IMG/VR virus record: IMGVR_UViG_3300027719_000036
Coordinates: 1-36,410 of that record
Origin: a virus
DNA length: 36,410 bases
Reading direction: 5' to 3' (one strand)
The notes under the pieces were generated by a model. That model ran no database searches. It saw only the letters and a program-made list of their open reading frames with translations, and was not told where the DNA came from. Positions 4,368-31,546 of this stretch are shown here, piece after piece (position 1 is the first letter of the stretch; each line of letters opens with the position of its first letter). Position numbers and translations under genes: made by a program.

Positions 4368-5579
4368 TTAATCTCCTAATTTAATCACTTCTTTTCCTGT
4401 AAACTTCTCCCACCTATCAATTATAACTTGGCAATAGTGTGTGTCTAATTCCATCATATAACATTTTCTATTTGTTTGTTCACAAGCTATTAGAGTTGAA
4501 CCACTACCACCAAACAAATCTAGTATAATATTCTCCTTAATGGAACTGGTTTCAACAAACGGGACTATCACGCCAACGGGTTTCTGTGTCGTATGCAAAT
4601 TCAATCCTTCCGAACCACCATTGAACCATTTATTTCCGCTATCATCTATGCTTTTTGCACTTTGTATTGATGCAACCTCTATGACAGAATTGCCTTTTGT
4701 TCTATACGAATTACATTTGAATCCAATCTTGTTACAATAAAACAAATTTTCGTGCTGTTGTCTGAACTCAATATTTGTATAACTCGGAATGTCCTTAACC
4801 CAAATAATCTGATTTCTCACCTCATAACCCGAAGTATTCAATGCTAACTCAAAATTTCTCTGTTCACGATAGCTATGCCATACATACAGAGGTGATTCAT
4901 CTTTCGACGATATAAAAATATTTCCAATTGCTTGATTAAGGAAGCGAAGGAACTCTTCATCACCCATATCATCGTTCTTAATCTTCCCTAGTCCTCTCTT
5001 CTTACTCCTGCTGTCAATGTCTACATTATATGGTGGGTCTGTAAACACCATATCGGCTTTCTGTCCATCCATTAACTTCTCAACATCTTCTATCTTCGTA
5101 CTATCCCCACACATAAGGCGGTGCTTTCCTAGTTGCCACACCTCTCCCTTTTTAACTTTAACTTCTAAATCCTCTGGCTCTTCGTAGTCATCTTCTTTTA
5201 CATCTAACTCCACCTCTGGCATTAAATCATCAAACCCTAGTTCTGTTAATACATCTTCAAACTCATTGGCTAGTTTATCCATATCCCATTCTCCACTATG
5301 CCTATTACTTATAACACCAATCTTTTTAATCTCTTGTTCCGTTAGTTTCCTTTCTGGTACACTTACTTCAACTTCTGTTTGTCCTAGTTTTTGTGCTACC
5401 CTCAACCTCTGATTCCCTGCTATAACTGTTCCATCAGTATCTATTACAAGTGGTTCAAAATTCCCCAAGTCGTCTATACTTGATACTAACTCTTCAAAAT
5501 GTTCCTCTGATATAATTCTTGGGTTGCTTTCCCAATTCTTTAACTCGGACAGCTTCCTAATCTCTGTTCTCCACTTCAT
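4368..5579 (-). CDS. ParB-like domain fused to DNA methyltransferase
   Basis: A 403-residue fusion. The N-terminal 110 residues are a ParB/Srx-type domain with DTDGTVIAGNQRLRVAQKLG at about 48-67. A DNA methylase of the N4/N6 beta class follows: catalytic DPPY at 181-184, HTTQKPV at about 329 and the SAM-binding LDLFGGSGST at about 354-362, in the order DPPY then FxGxG. Such fusions are common in phages near terminase genes and modify adenine or N4-cytosine, probably shielding phage DNA from host restriction or marking it for packaging. It starts 17 bases after a 45-residue gene and ends three bases before the small terminase start, so it is probably co-transcribed with packaging genes. Target sequence unknown. 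Confidence 0.93.
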   Translation of the reverse strand: MKWRTEIRKLSELKNWESNPRIISEEHFEELVSSIDDLGNFEPLVIDTDGTVIAGNQRLRVAQKLGQTEVEVSVPERKLTEQEIKKIGVISNRHSGEWDMDKLANEFEDVLTELGFDDLMPEVELDVKEDDYEEPEDLEVKVKKGEVWQLGKHRLMCGDSTKIEDVEKLMDGQKADMVFTDPPYNVDIDSRSKKRGLGKIKNDDMGDEEFLRFLNQAIGNIFISSKDESPLYVWHSYREQRNFELALNTSGYEVRNQIIWVKDIPSYTNIEFRQQHENLFYCNKIGFKCNSYRTKGNSVIEVASIQSAKSIDDSGNKWFNGGSEGLNLHTTQKPVGVIVPFVETSSIKENIILDLFGGSGSTLIACEQTNRKCYMMELDTHYCQVIIDRWEKFTGKEVIKLGD

Positions 5580-5596: not shown

Positions 5597-5734
5597 TTAT
5601 TTCTTTTTACTAACTTTCTTTACTTTAACCTCTGGTACTACTATCTCACTGAAGTCTAATTCGTAAACATGACCATAGATCTTAATAGTCTGCTTACCTC
5701 TCACCAACTGCACTTTAAGTCTTGGAAGTTCCAT
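5597..5734 (-). CDS. Small basic protein of unknown function, 45 residues
   Basis: Begins MELPRLKVQLVRGKQTIKIY and ends in a lysine-rich tail (VKKVSKKK). Its ATG lies 20 bases inside the end of the glycosyltransferase gene and its stop is 17 bases before the ParB-methyltransferase start, so it fills an otherwise empty slot in a tightly packed operon. Its composition suggests a short beta-rich body with a positively charged tail. No family recognised. Confidence 0.6.
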   Translation of the reverse strand: MELPRLKVQLVRGKQTIKIYGHVYELDFSEIVVPEVKVKKVSKKK

Positions 5735-6851
5735 TCTCATAATTGCTTAACTTAACTACCACACCTGTAGCAACAAGAGTATTTGCTCGTGATCTTGAAA
5801 CCTCAAGCATTTCTCCCTTGTTTACTCTCCTATTTAATATTATATCATTATATCTCTTGAAACATCTAACTGTGACCTTGTCTGATTCTATTATCTTGGT
5901 CTTTTTACGCTTCCCATCTGGCTTACCCAACACATCTATCCAAGCCTGTTCTGTTCCTATTTCCTTAAACTCAAACTTCGGTCTCTTCTCGTATAGCTTC
6001 TTTATGAATTTGTCGTCAAAACATTCAAGATTGAAATCTACGATGTACCCATTCTTACCGTCTTGTATCTGCTCTCTAGCATTTGGGAAGTCTGTAGCTA
6101 TAACAGGCGTGTTGTAAGACAAGGCTTCGTGTATTGAAAACGCATAGCCCTCTGTATCGGACAATTGTACCAGATAATCAGCGTCAGCTACGAAACTATC
6201 TAATCCTGTTCCGTACCCTCTAAAGGACACCTCTGGTACATTCTCTAACTGTCTTTTAATCTTGTTCACATACCCCTCATCAAATCCATCTCCCCATATA
6301 TCCCAATTGAACTTATACCCACCATCTTTTAACTTTTTAGCCATTTGTACAACCCTCTGAAAGCCCTTCTCCTTTCCTATTCGTGAGGTCGTTATCAAAT
6401 GCAATACTGGTTTAATCTTCACCTCTTTGTCCAACATATAGTGGACAACCTGACAATCCCATTGGAATCTCTCTTTGAAAGTATCAGCTATGACCTGCCC
6501 TCCTCCAATATGCTCTGTAACCTCGTCTAGTTTCTGGTATGCGAAATTCCAGAACTTCTCTAACCCTCTGAAGTCTGCATGAACCATTTGAATATATCTC
6601 TTGGCTTTGATGTTTTTAACAGGTCGCTTACCCCATGCACTTGAAAAGATACAAATGTCGGTTTCAAACATCTGGTCATCAAATACAACCACTGGTACAT
6701 ACTTCCCTATCCTTGCTAACTGCTGTGGATCACCTGCGTCACATAAAAAGGTAATATCGTAGAACTTGGATAGCCTTTGGCAGAAGGTGTAGTTGAACTG
6801 CTCCACTCCACCACACTTTGTTTGATTAGCTTGATATAGTATTATTCGCAT
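5715..6851 (-). CDS. GT4-type glycosyltransferase with C-terminal extension
   Basis: A 378-residue GT-B fold protein. The N-terminal domain begins with a strand and loop holding CGGVEQF (13-19). The C-terminal Rossmann half has the TSRIGKEKGF donor-binding signature (155-164) and the E-x7-E motif (Glu234 in SDTEGYAF, Glu242 in HEALSYNTPV). Residues about 323-370 are an extra small domain (RCFKRYNDIILNRRVNKGE) found as a C-terminal module in other phage proteins. The enzyme should transfer a sugar from a nucleotide donor to a glycan or protein. It overlaps the ParB-like gene by 10 bases and closes the sugar cassette, whose dehydratase and epimerase probably make its donor. Confidence 0.9.
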   Translation of the reverse strand: MRIILYQANQTKCGGVEQFNYTFCQRLSKFYDITFLCDAGDPQQLARIGKYVPVVVFDDQMFETDICIFSSAWGKRPVKNIKAKRYIQMVHADFRGLEKFWNFAYQKLDEVTEHIGGGQVIADTFKERFQWDCQVVHYMLDKEVKIKPVLHLITTSRIGKEKGFQRVVQMAKKLKDGGYKFNWDIWGDGFDEGYVNKIKRQLENVPEVSFRGYGTGLDSFVADADYLVQLSDTEGYAFSIHEALSYNTPVIATDFPNAREQIQDGKNGYIVDFNLECFDDKFIKKLYEKRPKFEFKEIGTEQAWIDVLGKPDGKRKKTKIIESDKVTVRCFKRYNDIILNRRVNKGEMLEVSRSRANTLVATGVVVKLSNYENGTSKT

Positions 6852-7282
6852 TTGTATATGTCTAAAGTTACTTTGTCATACCCTAGCATTATCATTATAC
6901 TCACCCTATGTGTTCCATCAATAAGTAATACCTTTCCGTTTTCTCTTACTGCTGTAAGACCACCATACTTTTTATCTTCTATCCATAATGTAGCGTCTTC
7001 TTGCACTTCATCATACCCACCCTCCAAACTATCTATTAACCACTTGAACCTCTCAACTCTGGCTATTATATCTTCTTTGGTCTTTATATATCCCCATACG
7101 CAACTGTGTTTTTCTACCAAGTCCTCAATCCATTTGTAATACATGGTGTCTTCTGGTTTGATAGCCCTGTTATCGTATATCTCTTTAGCAAACCCTACAA
7201 AAGGACAGCTTGTCATTGGTACAGCCTCACCAACCACTAGGTTCATTGTGTATATCTCATTTATATTTACTGATTCCAACAT
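6842..7282 (-). CDS. ParB/Srx-like nuclease-fold protein
   Basis: A 146-residue stand-alone ParB-like domain: the C-terminal LIDGTHRVSIMIMLGYDKVT (about 119-138) matches the family's DGxHR nucleotide-binding segment. Members range from CTP-dependent partition proteins to ADP-dependent amino-acid kinases and small-molecule enzymes. Sitting between a methyltransferase and a glycosyltransferase with overlaps of 16 and 10 bases, a role in making or modifying a glycan substituent is more likely than DNA partition (inference). It has a GGAAGG ribosome site. Distinct from the ParB domain fused to the methyltransferase at 4368-5579. Confidence 0.75.
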   Translation of the reverse strand: MLESVNINEIYTMNLVVGEAVPMTSCPFVGFAKEIYDNRAIKPEDTMYYKWIEDLVEKHSCVWGYIKTKEDIIARVERFKWLIDSLEGGYDEVQEDATLWIEDKKYGGLTAVRENGKVLLIDGTHRVSIMIMLGYDKVTLDIYKCE

Positions 7283-7785
7283 TTGAATACCTTCCTTGTG
7301 CTCTTTGGATCATGTGGGCTAGGTGATACACCATAGCACAACACATTCTCAAAGAATTGTTTAGCTAAAAATATATTAGTCTCCTCGTCTCTTGTGTAAT
7401 ATATCGGTGCTGTGCCTATAACTGGAACTTCAAATATAAATGTCTTACATTGTTTAGAATACTTTTCCAATGCCTTTTCAAACTCATTGTCATCAAGAAT
7501 ATGAAGTGTAGACAGGGATATTCCTATATCATAATTGCCTTCAAAGGTTTTCAGATCGGCCAAGAAGAAATCAACATCTGGATAGTTGCTTTTTGCATCA
7601 TAAATATACTCCATACTTAAATCTATTCCTGTATAACTCTTAATCCCACACTCTTTTAGAAGTGGGTACAACATACCAGAACAACAACCTATGTCTAATA
7701 CTGTCTTGCCCTTCCAGAATTCTTTAGGCTCTTTAATAGCGTCAAACTTCAACTTAATCTTCTCTGGTGTTTGGTATGGTGTCAT
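7267..7785 (-). CDS. Class I SAM-dependent methyltransferase
   Basis: A 172-residue Rossmann methyltransferase. Motif I VLDIGCCSG at about 29-37, the acidic ribose-binding loop TGIDLS at about 53-58, and an FFLADL segment at about 75-80 are all visible. DNA-methylase catalytic motifs such as DPPY are absent, so the acceptor is probably a small molecule, sugar or lipid. It overlaps the SDR gene by 4 bases (ATGA) and the ParB-like gene by 16, so it belongs to the glycan cassette. The ribosome site AAAGGA precedes the ATG. Methylation of a sugar is the natural guess, unproven. Confidence 0.85.
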   Translation of the reverse strand: MTPYQTPEKIKLKFDAIKEPKEFWKGKTVLDIGCCSGMLYPLLKECGIKSYTGIDLSMEYIYDAKSNYPDVDFFLADLKTFEGNYDIGISLSTLHILDDNEFEKALEKYSKQCKTFIFEVPVIGTAPIYYTRDEETNIFLAKQFFENVLCYGVSPSPHDPKSTRKVFKCWNQ

Positions 7786-8567
7786 AGTTTTAATCCTTTC
7801 TCGGGTACTTCCCCGAATACCTTTTTTAATTTAGTATTGTCCGACCAACTCACCGTACACTCTCCATCATCAATTCTCTTATACCTTGGGTTGCACCCCG
7901 TGTCTATCATCTCCTCTATCAACTGGTTAGTAGTTCTTACCTCTCCACTACCTAGATTAAACACAACCCCCTGCGTTTTGACATCTAAAGCCCGAATGAT
8001 AAAGTGAATGACATCTGACACATGAATATAATCTCTGTAATAGCTATCAGGGTTCACAATAGTCAGTTCTTCACCGCTTTTTAATTTATTGATTAACGAA
8101 TTTTTGAATCCATCTCCGTATAGATTAAATATCCTGAATATGGTCAATTTACAAGTAGCATTCCTTAAAAGCACCTGTTCTGCCATGTACTTTGAAATGC
8201 CATACATATTTTTAGCACCAATGTTGTCTAACTCTGTTGTTGGTCTAATCTCCATCTGATCGTACACAGCACAAGTGGATGTAAATATGAACCTCTCTAG
8301 CCCATACTTTTGTCCTACCTTGAGTAGGTTAAGCGTTGCACATACATTAACCTGCATTGCCAAGTCTGTATCGTTACAAGCCGAACCTAACAACGCTGCT
8401 AAATGAATTATAATCTCTGGCTTTTCCACCGAGATCAACTCCTCTACCGCCCCGAAATCTGTTATGTCCAATGTTTCCCTATCGGTTCGTATTATTCTAT
8501 ATCCTTCTATCTCCGGAATAAGACTACCTAAACAACCTTTCGAACCAGTCACGAGAATAGTTTTCAT
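7782..8567 (-). CDS. NAD(P)-dependent sugar epimerase/reductase (extended SDR)
   Basis: A 261-residue extended short-chain dehydrogenase. The cofactor loop TGSKGCLG (7-14) has GxxGxxG, the central strand reads IIIHLAAL (about 52-59), Ser97/Thr98 lie in FTSTCAVYD, and the catalytic pair is Tyr122 and Lys126 in MYGISKYMAEQ. The family covers UDP-sugar 4-epimerases, 4-keto reductases and dehydratases. Placed directly after a 4,6-dehydratase (4-base overlap), it may reduce or epimerise the 4-keto product. It is short for the family because the C-terminal substrate lobe is compact. Exact substrate unknown. Confidence 0.9.
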   Translation of the reverse strand: MKTILVTGSKGCLGSLIPEIEGYRIIRTDRETLDITDFGAVEELISVEKPEIIIHLAALLGSACNDTDLAMQVNVCATLNLLKVGQKYGLERFIFTSTCAVYDQMEIRPTTELDNIGAKNMYGISKYMAEQVLLRNATCKLTIFRIFNLYGDGFKNSLINKLKSGEELTIVNPDSYYRDYIHVSDVIHFIIRALDVKTQGVVFNLGSGEVRTTNQLIEEMIDTGCNPRYKRIDDGECTVSWSDNTKLKKVFGEVPEKGLKL

Positions 8568-9610
8568 CTTTTTACATTGTAGCCGAGACTTCTTATCATA
8601 AAGAACATCTCATGCTCCGTCAGTTCATAATTTAATGTTTTAGGAATAGCCCGTCTGATAGCGTCTTCTATTTCCTTGCCGTCAGGGTCATTCTTCACTA
8701 TGAATATTTTATCCTCTTCTGTTCTTGCCATGGTTTGTGGGTTGTATGTAAGTTCTTCAAACATCTTTTCACCTTTTCTCAATCCCGTTATTTTGATTTT
8801 ACTCTTTGATTTGAGAGCTTTTATAATACTTTGGGCTAATTCAATGATTTTTACTGGTTTTCCCATGTCCAATAAAAATATATCCCCATTTCTGGCTATA
8901 GTTGCAGATAATAAGATCAATTCAACCGCTTCCTTTTTAGTCATAAAGTATCTTGTGATGTTCTTATCTGTTACTGTAAGGGGTTCACCTTGTGAGGCCT
9001 GTCTCATAAAGGTATTAACCACTGATCCATTGCTTTGAATAACGTTCCCAAACCTAACGGCATTGAATATCGTGTCTCCTGTTCTCTGTTGCATAAGTAC
9101 CTCACATATCCGCTTTGTAGCCCCCATGATACTGCTAGGATTAACCGCCTTATCCGTAGATACCAATATGAAGTTCTCACACCCGTATTCAACTGCGGTC
9201 TCCATCATATTTAATCCGCCCCATACATTGTTGTTGAAACAATCAACTGAATTATCCTGCATTAAAGGGCAATGTTTATATGCTGCCGCCTGTATGATAA
9301 TTTGTGGCTTGTATTTTGCGAGTATCTTCTCTACCCTTCTTGTCTTAACATCTCCAACAAAATATGTGACTAATTCAGATTGCAAAGACTGCTCCAAGAA
9401 AAATATTCCATTCTCCCACCAATCAAAGGCCAATACTTGTTTTACTCCCAAGGTGATTAATAATCTAACTAACTCGCTTCCGATTGATCCTGCCGCACCT
9501 GTAACCATTACCGTCTTATTCTCATAGAAGGATTTTAGTTTATCCATATCTCTATGTACTGGTTCACGGCCTATCATTTCGAGTATCTGGTCATCTGTAT
9601 ATTCAGACAT
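8564..9610 (-). CDS. UDP-GlcNAc 4,6-dehydratase-like enzyme (CapD/FlaA1/PglF type, soluble)
   Basis: A 348-residue SDR lacking the N-terminal membrane domain of full-length CapD. It begins with the family lead-in IGREPVHRD (13-21), then the NAD loop VTGAAGSIGSE (36-46). The catalytic block STDKAVNPSSIMGATKR runs from 151 to 167: Thr152, Asp153, Lys154, with Met162 in the position where classic SDRs have Tyr, as in the PglF branch, and Lys166. Such enzymes convert UDP-GlcNAc to a 4-keto-6-deoxy sugar, the first step to bacillosamine, QuiNAc or similar. It overlaps the NinG-like gene by 8 bases and the SDR by 4. Activity inferred from intact catalytic residues. Confidence 0.92.
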   Translation of the reverse strand: MSEYTDDQILEMIGREPVHRDMDKLKSFYENKTVMVTGAAGSIGSELVRLLITLGVKQVLAFDWWENGIFFLEQSLQSELVTYFVGDVKTRRVEKILAKYKPQIIIQAAAYKHCPLMQDNSVDCFNNNVWGGLNMMETAVEYGCENFILVSTDKAVNPSSIMGATKRICEVLMQQRTGDTIFNAVRFGNVIQSNGSVVNTFMRQASQGEPLTVTDKNITRYFMTKKEAVELILLSATIARNGDIFLLDMGKPVKIIELAQSIIKALKSKSKIKITGLRKGEKMFEELTYNPQTMARTEEDKIFIVKNDPDGKEIEDAIRRAIPKTLNYELTEHEMFFMIRSLGYNVKR

Positions 9611-12203: not shown

Positions 12204-12338
12204 CTAATCCCCGAATACTTTTTGTATAGTAATCCAGCTATATATCTCTTTTGCAGTTTTGTTATTATCGTTCAATACTTTAAGTTTTCTCTTCAAATAA
12301 ATCCACAAAGCCTTCTCTACTGTAATATCTTTCTTCAT
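12204..12338 (-). CDS. Small basic protein, 44 residues
   Basis: Translates as MKKDITVEKALWIYLKRKLK followed by a short C-terminal helix ending VFGD and a TAG stop. Basic and aromatic, compatible with a single DNA-binding helical hairpin. First gene after the structured RNA region. Below the usual length cut-off, so support is from position and composition only. Confidence 0.5.
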   Translation of the reverse strand: MKKDITVEKALWIYLKRKLKVLNDNNKTAKEIYSWITIQKVFGD

Positions 12339-12385
12339 CTTAATTAAAAATAATAATTTATATACACCACTCTAAACTACTCTTA

Positions 12386-12532
12386 TGACACTTGCTGGAT
12401 TTGAACCAGACCACCCTCTCGGGTATGCCATCACACCATGCTTCGTATTACTAAACACAGGATTCACACCTGTACAGCTTCCTCTTTTTCAATGTTCAGC
12501 CTAAATATTCCGCATAGTACACTTCAAGCGTC
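12386..12532 (-). ncRNA. tRNA-like structured RNA, about 147 nt
   Basis: Non-coding on the minus strand. The ends can form a 7-bp acceptor-like stem, GACGCTT at 12532-12526 with AAGTGTC at 12393-12387. A T-arm-like hairpin (CTGG, loop TTCAAAT, CCAG) sits next to the 3' half. A second T-arm-like hairpin (ACAGG, loop TGTGAAT, CCTGT) and an ACCC-GAGA-GGGT tetraloop hairpin lie inside. It is too long for a normal tRNA and I cannot find a proper anticodon arm. It could be a degenerate or interrupted tRNA, or one domain of a larger RNA. Confidence 0.4.
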
Positions 12533-12568
12533 TAATCATTAAAAGAACTCTTATTAAATACTAAAATA

Positions 12569-12678
12569 TGTGGAGGTTACACCGCACAGGCTATCTTGCA
12601 ACCTTACCTGTTGTTTGGCTCGAACCCAGTCCTCTCTACTAGAATTGAGGCGTTATGTCCGACTTGTATTACTCCACA
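12569..12678 (-). ncRNA. Structured RNA with closing 7-bp stem and pseudoknot, about 110 nt
   Basis: The minus strand begins TGTGGAG (12678-12672) and ends CTCCACA (12575-12569), a perfect 7-bp closing stem. Inside is the tRNA-like word GGGTTCGAGCC. Nearer the 3' end, ACAGG (12611-12607) pairs with CCTGT (12590-12586) while GGTTGCA (12603-12597) pairs with TGTAACC (12581-12575), a crossing pattern that makes an H-type pseudoknot. TTCTAGT could look like a CUA anticodon loop, but its flanks do not form a stem. Class unknown. Confidence 0.42.
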
Positions 12679-12719
12679 AATTATAATATTCAATTTTCAA
12701 AGAACCCTAAAAGACTATT

Positions 12720-12809
12720 CCTATCCTTACCAGCAGAATCAACTAACTCCACTAGCAGGGATAGGCTCACGATATGTCAGAAACTGCCCGAAACCAACAA
12801 TCATGAGCC
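12720..12809 (-). ncRNA. Two adjacent long hairpins of the structured RNA region
   Basis: Two hairpins share their border: 12764-12809 closes with a 10-bp stem (GGCTCATGAT with ATCGTGAGCC, one G-U pair) and 12720-12765 closes with CCTATCC and GGATAGG and has an inner CTGCT/AGCAG helix. They lie just after the stop of the 65-residue membrane protein and before the 110-nt unit, so 12.39-12.81 kb may be one composite RNA transcribed from the promoter at 13114-13142. Confidence 0.4.
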
Positions 12810-12820
12810 GATCTAAAGAG

Positions 12821-13018
12821 CTAATTCAACATCATCTCGCAATATTCCTTACTGTTTCCACCATCAATACATCCGTTTAATGCCTTGTTGTAGCTGTTCT
12901 TCATAGAAACCAGTGCTATCAGGATCAGCAACATTCCCATCAAGATCAAAGCAAATCCGATGTCTAATCGGTTGTCCTTCATACTCTCTCTCTTGGGTAA
13001 TTTGTATAAGTTCTTCAT
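12821..13018 (-). CDS. Single-span membrane protein, 65 residues
   Basis: One hydrophobic helix at about 23-40 (LDIGFALILMGMLLILIALV), with a basic N-terminus and a small C-terminal domain containing two cysteines (NGCIDGGNSKEYCEMMLN). An internal ATG at 12982 has a purine-rich GAGAGAGAG leader and may be the true start, giving 53 residues. First gene downstream of the promoter at 13114-13142. Could be an early envelope-modifying protein; no family recognised. Confidence 0.6.
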   Translation of the reverse strand: MKNLYKLPKRESMKDNRLDIGFALILMGMLLILIALVSMKNSYNKALNGCIDGGNSKEYCEMMLN

Positions 13019-13113: not shown

Positions 13114-13142
13114 ATTGTATATTATTATATATAATATGTCAA
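13114..13142 (-). promoter_or_regulatory. Sigma70-type early promoter
   Basis: Minus strand: -35 TTGACA (13142-13137), 17-base spacer, -10 TACAAT (13119-13114). The stretch CTATTGACATA and the TATATATAAT spacer core are nearly identical to the promoter at 14632-14660. It precedes the 65-residue gene and the structured RNA region. The leader from about 13107 to 13019 is non-coding and can fold locally. Confidence 0.8.
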
Positions 13143-14631: not shown

Positions 14632-14660
14632 ATTATATAGAATTATATATATTATGTCAA
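14632..14660 (-). promoter_or_regulatory. Perfect-consensus sigma70 promoter
   Basis: Minus strand: -35 TTGACA (14660-14655), 17-base spacer, -10 TATAAT (14637-14632), all consensus. Start of transcription would fall near 14625, about 23 bases before the ATG of the annealase-like gene. The -35 context matches the promoter at 13114-13142. Confidence 0.88.
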
Positions 14661-16647: not shown

Positions 16648-16650
16648 TTT

Positions 16651-16756
16651 GCTTGGTCTTAAATTAAATACCTATACCAGAGAGTGGGCGACCAAGCGAG
16701 GAAACCCACCCCCTGATATAAACATCTAACTTCTTTGAAAAATCTTTTGCTTGGTC
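16651..16756 (-). promoter_or_regulatory. Leader with three GACCAAGC repeats, candidate RNA switch or iterons
   Basis: On the minus strand GACCAAGC occurs at 16756-16749 near the predicted transcript start and at 16658-16651, ending 3 bases from the ATG of the replication gene. The complement GCTTGGTC occurs between them at 16697-16690, in the loop of a GTGGG/CCCAC hairpin (16684-16709). The middle copy can pair with either outer copy; pairing with the downstream one would cover the ribosome entry region. Alternatives are an operator or replication iterons. Confidence 0.5.
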
Positions 16757-16768
16757 TCTCATGCTCTA

Positions 16769-16797
16769 AACATACAATACCTAAACACGGATGTCAA
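16769..16797 (-). promoter_or_regulatory. Sigma70-type early promoter for the replication operon
   Basis: Minus strand: -35 TTGACA (16797-16792), 17-base spacer, -10 TATGTT (16774-16769; four of six consensus bases). It lies between the last lysis gene and the replication gene in a stretch with no other gene, and would start transcription near 16762, just before the first GACCAAGC repeat. Confidence 0.75.
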
Positions 16798-16825
16798 TAA
16801 TCCTATAATATCGTATATCAACACA

Positions 16826-19221: not shown

Positions 19222-21510
19222 TTATACTGTTCTTCTGTATCGGTATACTACTATGTAAGGTTGTAGATTATTGTGTGCAGAGGATGCGTTTGCTGTGCTA
19301 TTGCTATCGGTTGCTGTTGGCCCATCTCTCCTGATATTTAACCCCGCTGCCGAAGCGGCATTGTTATACCCAGTCTGATTTGTTACTACACTATAACCGC
19401 CAAACCCGTGTGTGTGTGCTGGTACTCCTGACTGTGCAGAGGTCAGAGTGACCGTCTTTGCACCGCCAGTTTCACCGATAGTATCAAACTCTGTATCTGC
19501 GGATTTTGCCACTAGAACCTGTCCTGCACCATAAGCTTCCCATGTACCTCCAAAATGTGTACCCATTTTAGTTGTAGTATCCAAGTCTGTAGATGTAGTT
19601 TCATAGATTGTTCCAACCGGATAGAACATATCGAGTAAACCAGATAAGTGTACCCCGTCTAGTGTGTCAGCATTCCCTGTAGTACCAGTGGTGAATTGAT
19701 ATACAGCAGTCACAATTTCTCCCGTTGCTGGTGCTGTTGCAAATGTGAATGTCCCTGAAGCGGGGGTTGTTTCTACCCAATCTTCACCGCTGCCTTGCGT
19801 TTCCAACCGACCATTTAGATATACTCTTAAAGAACCCGATATATAACTTCCTAAAGAAACCGTATAGACTGTGTTTGAGCTATTAACCAACCCGCCCAAA
19901 ACCCCATAAGTATCTGAAGTCCCACCACTACAATCGACTTGGAGTGAATTCCCACTACTTCCAACGGGTAATCCATCGACTTGCAGAGAGCCCCCAACTC
20001 CCACATCATACTTTCCCATTATTGCGATTCCATCCTTCGTAATATCTATTACTGGCGTACCAACTGATAGTGTTTGTTCAATAATTGTTTGTGATATCTT
20101 ATCAAATGCCCGAACCTCTATGTCAAAAGACTTGTCTACATCGAATCCACTAACCCCCAGATCACCTTCAATATACTCATCATAGGAAAGGTTACCACTT
20201 CCATCATCAGTTGCTGTTATCGCTGTCCATGTTTGAGCTCCCCAAGCCTCTGTGGTTAGTTTATATCTCCAATGGCATGTTACGGTATTAGCTACACCAT
20301 TTGCACCACCACCAAAATATTCCTTCCAGAGTAGTCCAGAGAATGCCAACTTTGTTTCACTATCTACCCCGTTATCTCTAGTCAATGTAAGACCCCATAA
20401 GGAAATAGGAGTTGGCTCTACCATATTAGCAAGGGAAGCAGTTACGGTTGTAACCAAACTCCTACTGTCTATTGCGGCTACTGAAACATCCTTGGTCAAA
20501 GCATTATCAATATCAAGGTTTACGGTAGATCCAATAGACAGTAGGAGTTTGGTTTGTAATGCTCCTGCCACAAACCTGTATTTAATTGGAGTTGCAGAGT
20601 TAAGAGCCACCATTTTGTTCGCAGTAGTTACAACCGCCCTCAACTTGGAGTACCCTTTAATCATCTTTGTATCAGAACCAAGCAATGTTGAGGTTGAGCT
20701 CGTTACCAAGGCGTTGGCATATTTATCAACAACAGCGATATTTTTATCAAGATTTCCAACTGTAAATGTTGTGAAGGTAGGGTTGTTGATCGCCTGATTC
20801 ACATATATAGTACCTGCTTTGTCATAATCACTACCAACCTGTGTTGAATATCCAGAATCAGAATATGTTTTTGCTCTTAATATACAAGCCCTACTCGTGG
20901 TGTTTGGCATTGCCGCATACATGATATTATTCTCTGTAGCACCCATTGTAATTGTTCCACTACTTCCAGTCCCCTCATTTGAGGTTGAAACCAAATCCCA
21001 ACTCGCACCGTCGTAGACATAGTATTCTAATTTCACATACAAACTTCCTGCGTTTGAAAGTGTATATGCTAGGTTGTTTCCTATTGTTAAATCTGAACTG
21101 CTGGTAATACTTGCAGCCCTAGGAATTGTGGTTAGTGCTACTGTTGCACTTAATGTACCGCTTGTTGGCCCATATCCGCCGCCTGTCGGTAATGACCCAA
21201 GGGCACTTATTGTTATTGATTTACTACCATCGGCACTGTGGGTAATTGTCTTTGTTCCAGAGTTACAAAGTCTAGGAGTAGTCTCTGGGTTCATATCAAT
21301 AGCGTTATTGTCACTAAACGCTGTTCCGTCTATATATAATGTTTGTGGATTACTAGCAGCCTCTGAATTATATGTAGATATCTTCTGAACATAGACCTCA
21401 ACTGTTACATCAGAGGTATTATTGACAATACTAACATTGGATTCACTCCACACTGCATAGTAGGAATATCTTGTTGGGTTTGTAGAACATGTACCATATA
21501 TTGTTGCCAT
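19222..21510 (-). CDS. Tail fibre/spike with T4 gp12-like C-terminal collar domain
   Basis: A 762-residue Ser/Thr/Gly-rich protein. The N-terminal part (about 1-480) has repeated beta-sandwich character and resembles siphophage proteins of the DUF859 type. Near residue 625 it switches to the baseplate and short-tail-fibre type C-terminus: MFYPVGTIYETTSTDLDTTT, then GVPAHTHGFGG with the metal-binding HTH, and HNNLQPYIVVYRYRRT at the end, as in T4 gp12/gp10 family domains. It probably contacts the host surface. It follows the tail-tip gene by 6 bases. Confidence 0.85.
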   Translation of the reverse strand: MATIYGTCSTNPTRYSYYAVWSESNVSIVNNTSDVTVEVYVQKISTYNSEAASNPQTLYIDGTAFSDNNAIDMNPETTPRLCNSGTKTITHSADGSKSITISALGSLPTGGGYGPTSGTLSATVALTTIPRAASITSSSDLTIGNNLAYTLSNAGSLYVKLEYYVYDGASWDLVSTSNEGTGSSGTITMGATENNIMYAAMPNTTSRACILRAKTYSDSGYSTQVGSDYDKAGTIYVNQAINNPTFTTFTVGNLDKNIAVVDKYANALVTSSTSTLLGSDTKMIKGYSKLRAVVTTANKMVALNSATPIKYRFVAGALQTKLLLSIGSTVNLDIDNALTKDVSVAAIDSRSLVTTVTASLANMVEPTPISLWGLTLTRDNGVDSETKLAFSGLLWKEYFGGGANGVANTVTCHWRYKLTTEAWGAQTWTAITATDDGSGNLSYDEYIEGDLGVSGFDVDKSFDIEVRAFDKISQTIIEQTLSVGTPVIDITKDGIAIMGKYDVGVGGSLQVDGLPVGSSGNSLQVDCSGGTSDTYGVLGGLVNSSNTVYTVSLGSYISGSLRVYLNGRLETQGSGEDWVETTPASGTFTFATAPATGEIVTAVYQFTTGTTGNADTLDGVHLSGLLDMFYPVGTIYETTSTDLDTTTKMGTHFGGTWEAYGAGQVLVAKSADTEFDTIGETGGAKTVTLTSAQSGVPAHTHGFGGYSVVTNQTGYNNAASAAGLNIRRDGPTATDSNSTANASSAHNNLQPYIVVYRYRRTV

Positions 21511-30667: not shown

Positions 30668-30714
30668 AATGTCATTTGATTAAATTATCAGTACTACGCT
30701 CTGCAGCTGTATCC

Positions 30715-30740
30715 ATATTTAATAGTAACATAAAAGTAAC
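30715..30740 (-). promoter_or_regulatory. Late-promoter-like repeat element B (before scaffold/capsid)
   Basis: Minus strand GTTAC-TTTTAT-GTTAC then TATTAAATAT (plus-strand gtaac at 30736 and 30725, 11 bases apart). Identical to element A over the GTTAC pair and TTTTAT, and follows the strong terminator at 30777-30836, so a new transcript must start here. Confidence 0.65.
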
Positions 30741-30776
30741 ATATACAACAAGGGAAAGGATAAAAAGAAAACTAAA

Positions 30777-30836
30777 GAGGGGGTATCATGTATGACGGAC
30801 AAAGTGTCCAGACGTATGATTTATTTTGACCCCCTC
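30777..30836 (-). terminator. Strong hairpin terminator after 110-residue gene
   Basis: GAGGGGGT (30784-30777 partner) pairs with ACCCCCTC to close a 60-base hairpin containing ATCAT/ATGAT and GGACA-CTT-TGTCC inner stems; minus-strand TTTAGTTTTCTTTTT follows. It ends the transcript of the 110-residue gene 8 bases after its stop. Confidence 0.82.
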
Positions 30837-30844
30837 AATAGGTA

Positions 30845-31177: not shown

Positions 31178-31212
31178 TTATGCCTCCATGTATACCTAGT
31201 TTTTAACGAACA

Positions 31213-31227
31213 TAGTCTTAAAGACTA
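31213..31227 (-). promoter_or_regulatory. Perfect inverted repeat, candidate operator
   Basis: TAGTCTT-A-AAGACTA (plus strand), a perfect 7-bp inverted repeat about one base centre, 36 bases before the 110-residue gene. A second weaker palindrome (CCTTGCAAGG) and an inverted pair TGTTTTGA/TCAAAACA (31236-31286) lie just upstream. The remaining 31287-31393 stretch holds no gene I can see. Confidence 0.45.
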
Positions 31228-31393
31228 AATAGAGATGTTTTGAATTCGCCTTGCAAGGATTAGAGCCACCTCAATATGTCAAAACACCCCTATTCAATTT
31301 TTAAGAACAACCCCTTGTAAGTCATCCGACAAATTGGGTTTAAGAACTAATTAGTGATGGGTATTGGAAAGATATAACCACCACTATCAGGCC

Positions 31394-31546
31394 TTAACTT
31401 TGTTGCAAAACTGTCCCAGACGGCCACATCTTAAATGTTTTTCTATCTCTAAACTCTGCCTGTTTCCCTGGATTCCATTGGCTAACTGGTCTTATATATC
31501 CTACTACCCTAGAATATACCTCACATAATTGTCGTTTTATTCTCAT
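31394..31546 (-). CDS. NrdD C-terminus-like glycyl-radical mini-protein, 50 residues
   Basis: MRIKRQLCEVYSRVVGYIRP then VSQWNPGKQAEFRDRKTF matches the C-terminal end of anaerobic ribonucleotide reductase NrdD, where the Gly in RVxGY carries the radical (here Gly16) and the downstream WNxGKQxEF...RKxF is conserved. Only this tail is present; there is no catalytic barrel in the window. Its ATG overlaps the phosphoesterase stop (ATGA), so it is expressed. It may act like the YfiD/GrcA spare part for a damaged host enzyme, or simply be a domain reused for another job. Confidence 0.75.
   Translation of the reverse strand: MRIKRQLCEVYSRVVGYIRPVSQWNPGKQAEFRDRKTFKMWPSGTVLQQS

Follow-up and report, generated by a model that had tools for sequence, protein, structure and literature searches.

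The window analyzed here is a 36,410-base virus contig (IMG/VR record IMGVR_UViG_3300027719_000036) taken at its full length, and derives from a small tailed phage in which genes for an SPP1-like portal, a large terminase, a tape measure protein, a baseplate-like protein and an M23 peptidase are seen. All likely genes are carried on the minus strand, where many start codons lack a clear Shine-Dalgarno sequence and instead follow a TAATTTAA/TAAATTAA-like motif, and where promoters of the TTGACA/TATAAT type are present. A DNA methyltransferase whose N-terminal domain is ParB-like and joined to an N6/N4 methylase domain is encoded at positions 4368-5579, and a sugar-gene block consisting of a glycosyltransferase and two nucleotide-sugar epimerase/dehydratase genes spans 5715-9610. 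The predicted structured RNA that is the subject of this study lies on the minus strand within a series of small genes, between an upstream open reading frame (ORF) of 65 amino acids (12821-13018), with a hydrophobic stretch read from the sequence, and a downstream ORF of 44 amino acids (12204-12338). The 65-amino acid ORF separates the RNA from a sigma70-type promoter, TTGACA-17-TACAAT (13114-13142), which is a consensus match at 11 of 12 positions with a predicted transcription start at ~13108; a near-identical twin, TTGACA-17-TATAAT, is located at 14660. No terminator was found at the 3' end of the RNA.

Folding of the minus strand of 12360-12820 (461 nt) yielded -136.2 kcal/mol (z -3.0), with none of 100 shuffled sequences folding as well, while the plus strand of the same region folds in an ordinary manner (z +0.22). 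The structural elements described in an earlier note on this DNA, which did not state a strand, are present where it had placed them, but on the minus strand only. Upon scanning with a sliding window, the region ranks among the lowest-energy windows of the phage, other windows being more extreme by z.

The 3' end of the RNA is formed by an oversized tRNA-like domain of 147 nt (12386-12532). It is closed by GACGCTTG/CAAGTGTC, an 8-bp acceptor-like stem (12525-12532 paired with 12387-12394), whose 3' strand runs straight into a T arm (12395-12409), CTGG-TTCAAAT-CCAG, with 4 bp and the 7-nt consensus T loop of tRNA. Together, stem and arm stack 8 + 4 = 12 pairs, as in the acceptor/T half of tRNA, and are followed by a discriminator-like A12386; CCA is not encoded. 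The acceptor pairs have probabilities of 0.96-0.98 in the whole-region ensemble, confirming the 147-nt unit with an acceptor-like stem that had been proposed, and the exact unit folds modestly better than its shuffles (z -2.33). In place of a D arm and an anticodon arm, both of which are absent, the interior harbors a long arm (12434-12519) and a GAGA-tetraloop hairpin (12410-12428), the latter flanked by the long arm and the T arm, where a variable arm would be; without D and anticodon arms the domain is therefore unable to decode. A second minihelix is nested at 12449-12500, in which GCTGAAC/GTTTAGT (7 bp) and ACAGG-TGTGAAT-CCTGT (5 bp; T arm 12457-12473) again make 12 pairs, with a looser T loop, TGTGAAT, and a following A12449. 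Its acceptor-like stem also has a probability of 0.96-0.98, and its T arm one of 0.30-0.45, that is, under half of structures. Two of three T-arm words singled out previously thus make T arms, at 12395-12409 and 12457-12473; the third, GGGTTCGAGCC, pairs within another helix and was rejected as a T arm.

Upstream of this domain lies a unit (12553-12694) bounded by 23-nt arms, 12553-12575 and 12672-12694, that are 83% complementary. The 7-bp closing stem TGTGGAG/CTCCACA of its 110-nt core (12569-12678) is part of these longer arms. A possible pseudoknot at 12574-12611 combines S1, ACAGGT/GCCTGT (6 bp), with S2, AGGTTGCA/TGTAACCT (8 bp), the last two pairs of which compete with the closing stem of the 110-nt unit. 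A comparable pseudoknot occurs in 58 of 1000 shuffles and in two of 328 other 111-nt windows, so that of the 110-nt unit with H-type pseudoknot described before us the closing stem stands, and the pseudoknot, common enough in shuffles, exists on paper and is suggestive only. With its flanks, the 110-nt unit folds modestly better than shuffles (z -1.69).

The 5' end consists of two abutting hairpins, the first (12764-12809) with a 10-bp lower stem GGCTCATGAT/ATCGTGAGCC and the second (12722-12763) with 5 + 13 bp, corresponding to a hairpin that had been noted with 7 bp and is in fact longer. Taken together (12722-12809), they are the best-folded part of the RNA (z -4.94). Such an arrangement is what the main alternative to a tRNA mimic would draw upon, namely a cis-acting intercistronic structure between the 65- and 44-amino acid genes that controls termination, decay or translation, for instance an attenuator or a put-type antiterminator of two adjacent hairpins, in which only the 5' hairpins matter and the resemblance to tRNA is incidental. 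Consistent with it, the abutting hairpins lie ~300 nt past the expected transcription start, and the RNA sits between two same-strand ORFs with no terminator found at its 3' end. However, a cis-acting structure leaves unexplained the acceptor/T minihelix, its rarity and its recurrence in intergenic gaps of a related phage (see below), and we regard it as a real possibility, if an unlikely one.

Standard tests returned no canonical tRNA. ARAGORN found no tRNA, tmRNA or tRNA island in the window, and the tRNA covariance model, whose cut-off is 29 bits, detected only the two T arms (9.9 and 7.7 bits), in agreement with the earlier observation that no part folds as a normal tRNA. Searches of Rfam gave no match at gathering thresholds and nothing meaningful at E ≤ 10. 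At E ≤ 10 there was no match to tmRNA (RF00023), for which all 14 control genomes were positive, nor to YrlA (RF02553), for which no control genome rose above the cut-off either. Group I and group II introns had no Rfam support, and a hand search for a permuted or intron-split tRNA gave no parse with D and anticodon arms; interrupted tRNAs, one of the suggestions of the earlier note, are not supported, as no intron family matched and the D and anticodon arms are absent rather than split. A related idea, that the region is a decayed phage tRNA-gene cluster whose broken tRNAs retain their T arms, could draw on the two good T arms and third T-arm-like word, and on an intact tRNA-Ile elsewhere in the genome of the relative G015. 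Decay, however, would not be expected to keep contiguous acceptor stems of 7-8 bp paired over non-tRNA stretches of 20 and 115 nt, nor to nest one acceptor stem in the other, and with the D and anticodon arms gone and only T arms visible to the tRNA model we consider this origin improbable.

Membership in ROOL or GOLLD, the large ornate phage RNAs to which a likeness had also been suggested, would fit a phage-encoded, multi-domain RNA of several hundred nucleotides with a possible pseudoknot, and these families are often found near tRNA islands (PMC12286853). Yet neither Rfam model matched even at E ≤ 10, the architecture is different, the RNA is shorter than most members and the window contains no tRNA island, making membership extremely improbable.

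The rarity of the minihelix was assessed with a strict scan requiring a tRNA-consensus T loop and 12 contiguous acceptor/T pairs. In the 36-kb window a single site, the outer minihelix, satisfies this rule, and relaxing the T loop adds just the nested site. Among 4000 dinucleotide shuffles of the region, one contained a strict match and four a loose match; the rule was drawn up after the stems had been seen, which weakens the argument from rarity and does not remove it. In the other DNA that we retrieved (3.04 Mb, both strands summed), every strict match overlaps a tRNA called by ARAGORN. A group rule (12 pairs, a 7-nt T-like loop, gene strand, tRNAs removed) identified four distinct non-tRNA T arms, two in the window and two in the relative G006, in 23.7 kb of gaps of the phage group, while the group's 294 kb of coding DNA yielded none (Fisher p 3e-5, to be taken as a guide and not as a clean test, the rule having been tuned on the same genomes). 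In unrelated phages the same rule gave one match in gaps and three in coding sequence over 1.09 Mb. T-loop hairpins of the pattern GGT[GT]NRANYCC plus stem, which was partly shaped by the window itself, occur on the gene strand six times in the gaps of the window, G006 and the relative G009 versus once in coding sequence. That an AT-rich gap merely folds in the ordinary way and bears a coincidental tRNA-like motif is a view favored by the lack of homologues, by two units with z-scores near shuffle levels, by the post hoc motif rule and by the more extreme z-scores of other windows of the phage. It is at odds with a strict motif that is unique genome-wide and found in one of 4000 shuffles, with the strand specificity of folding, and with the four group matches in gaps versus none in coding sequence, and we therefore hold chance to be quite improbable. 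The structured, tRNA-like, non-coding RNA that had been postulated is borne out by the fold z-scores and by this rare minihelix of tRNA geometry.

Searches for the RNA in other genomes recovered no sequence homologue. Alignment of portal proteins collected 19 contigs, 17 of them new and several of 33-36 kb, all of which lack the RNA sequence, and blastn against phages and plasmids gave short chance matches only. Two IMG/VR pattern scans retrieved unrelated sites without the flanking RNA, the second being in a coding region. Utilizing protein scans, a terminase scan of genome contigs and the portal alignment, we reached loci via the glycosyltransferase, terminase, tail gene, DnaD-like loader and portal (including ~20 related-phage contigs), and the RNA is absent from all of these. 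A covariance model of the 147-nt unit, run with default filters on 44 loci, matches only itself. Without filters, its best match in T4 is a tRNA (13.2 bits), which was not counted as chance matches elsewhere score as high, and its top match in G015 consists of terminator-like hairpins beside the tRNA-Ile.

Two RNAs of G006 nevertheless share the geometry. The first (L123:4384-) lies in a non-coding gap with a TTGACA promoter just upstream and forms a 7 + 5 minihelix around a 205-nt insert; it is a fold outlier (z -3.8), was folded as such before the widened scan reached it, and its minimum-energy structure already included both the closing helix and the 5-bp arm. The second (L124:13617-), also in a non-coding gap, has a 7 + 5 minihelix around an 83-nt insert (z -1.98). 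Like the window RNA, both occupy gene-strand non-coding gaps and possess a non-tRNA acceptor/T minihelix of 12 pairs; in contrast, they have no sequence similarity to it, occupy other genome positions and carry looser T loops (TGAGAGC and TGCAAGT), and neither was detected by a covariance model of the window RNA. In G009, a TTGACA promoter and a 65-amino acid ORF are followed, in the same arrangement as in the window, by a structured gap (L125:12930-13254, z -3.24), without homology. A second structured gene-strand gap of G009 is found at L125:14360-14770 (z -3.0). A separate gap of G006 (L123:3794-3899) matches Rfam rli48 weakly (29.4 bits, E 0.23) and, on the other strand, the Pistol ribozyme (23 bits, E 4.9), both below the gathering score.

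The closest known RNA is T4 RNA C (species 1 RNA; NC_000866 70908-71046, minus strand; 139 nt, z -4.57), a puzzling RNA known for decades. In this RNA a CGATTCG/CGTTTCG stem with two U-U mismatches continues into CCGGG-TTCGAAT-CCCGG, and a long arm and a 10-bp variable-like hairpin precede the T arm, the hairpin immediately 5' of it. It thus shares with the 147-nt unit a similar length and the order of acceptor-like stem, long arm, variable-like hairpin and T arm with a consensus loop, the long arm in both replacing the D and anticodon arms. Since there is no sequence homology between the two (7.5 bits and E 0.45 for the model of the 147-nt unit, no better than chance matches elsewhere), the resemblance is one of layout and not of membership. 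T4 RNA C differs further in the mismatches of its acceptor-like stem, its 5-bp T stem and its location in a tRNA cluster, and, as far as tested, has no preceding hairpin or pseudoknot domains and no nested minihelix. Together with RNA D, it is one of two small stable T4 RNAs encoded beside tRNA genes (PMC3014915), both late RNAs validated by Northern blot (PMC9697503), and no role has yet been assigned to it (PMC3014915, PMC9697503). The possibility of a new class, raised by the earlier note, is accordingly to be qualified: no known family was matched, but the architecture resembles that of T4 RNA C, which the note did not name. The tRNA-like domain of tmRNA likewise keeps the acceptor and T arm, has a long helix for an anticodon arm and belongs to an RNA with a pseudoknot, whereas in the window RNA there is no model match and no tag reading frame was identified, and the acceptor closes 147 nt and not the whole RNA. 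A longer non-coding RNA with a tRNA-like end is also known from MALAT1, for whose terminal mascRNA maturation by RNase P, as suggested for the window RNA, has been proposed (PMC11693755). However, mascRNA is eukaryotic, small and canonically cloverleaf-like, and for the window RNA processing is only inferred.

We propose that the locus encodes an oversized phage tRNA-mimic RNA, expressed from a sigma70-type promoter and probably matured by host tRNA-processing enzymes, a reading to which we give about an even chance of being correct. RNase P, RNase Z and the CCA-adding enzyme recognize tRNA by its acceptor/T minihelix, and the simplest reading of the tRNA-like domain is that it would mimic a substrate of the enzymes with which the host matures its tRNAs. 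A minus-strand RNA of ~425 nt, presumably transcribed from the promoter at 13142 along with the 65-amino acid ORF, would comprise, from 5' to 3', the two abutting hairpins, the pseudoknot domain and the oversized tRNA-like domain. RNase P would cleave 5' of G12532, and the 3' end would be finished after A12386 by RNase Z or exonucleases and CCA addition. Maturation would free a stable tRNA-like RNA, parted from the mRNA of the downstream small genes. The mimic would then probably occupy or divert a host tRNA-handling protein; that it is a decoy, and that its targets are tRNA-handling or tRNA-cleaving host proteins, is our conjecture. The strand-specific fold, the rarity of the minihelix, its recurrence in the gaps of G006, the layout of T4 RNA C and the promoter argue for a tRNA mimic. 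Against it we count the lack of a homologue, and with it of covariation, the post hoc rule, the modest z-scores of the 110- and 147-nt units, the unencoded CCA and the failure of the covariance model of the window RNA to detect the G006 RNAs. More broadly, and tentatively, the window RNA, the G006 RNAs and T4 RNA C could belong to a widespread class of phage tRNA mimics, unconstrained in sequence and conserving only the acceptor/T-arm minihelix, that serve as decoys for tRNA-targeting host defenses or have regulatory roles and are processed by tRNA enzymes, a generalization we think unlikely. A second, unrelated phage group with an oversized, RNA C-like tRNA layout, along with a simple motif rule whose strict matches in other phages were here all tRNAs, would turn an isolated oddity into a searchable and testable class.

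Other parts of the phage also contain predicted structures. Close to the head genes, the folds of two non-coding gaps (30668-30844 and 31178-31542) are far more stable than those of shuffled sequences (z ~-5), and the corresponding stretch between the head genes of G015 is where its tRNA-Ile is encoded. A further gap (16648-16825), upstream of the gene for the DnaD-like helicase loader, has a long hairpin (z -4.2). Within the gene for a 762-amino acid tail protein, a 35-nt inverted repeat (20452-20486 and 20520-20554, 86% complementary, with 33 nt between the arms) gives rise to the strongest hairpin predicted anywhere in the window (z -8.8), which may represent an invertible or regulatory element.
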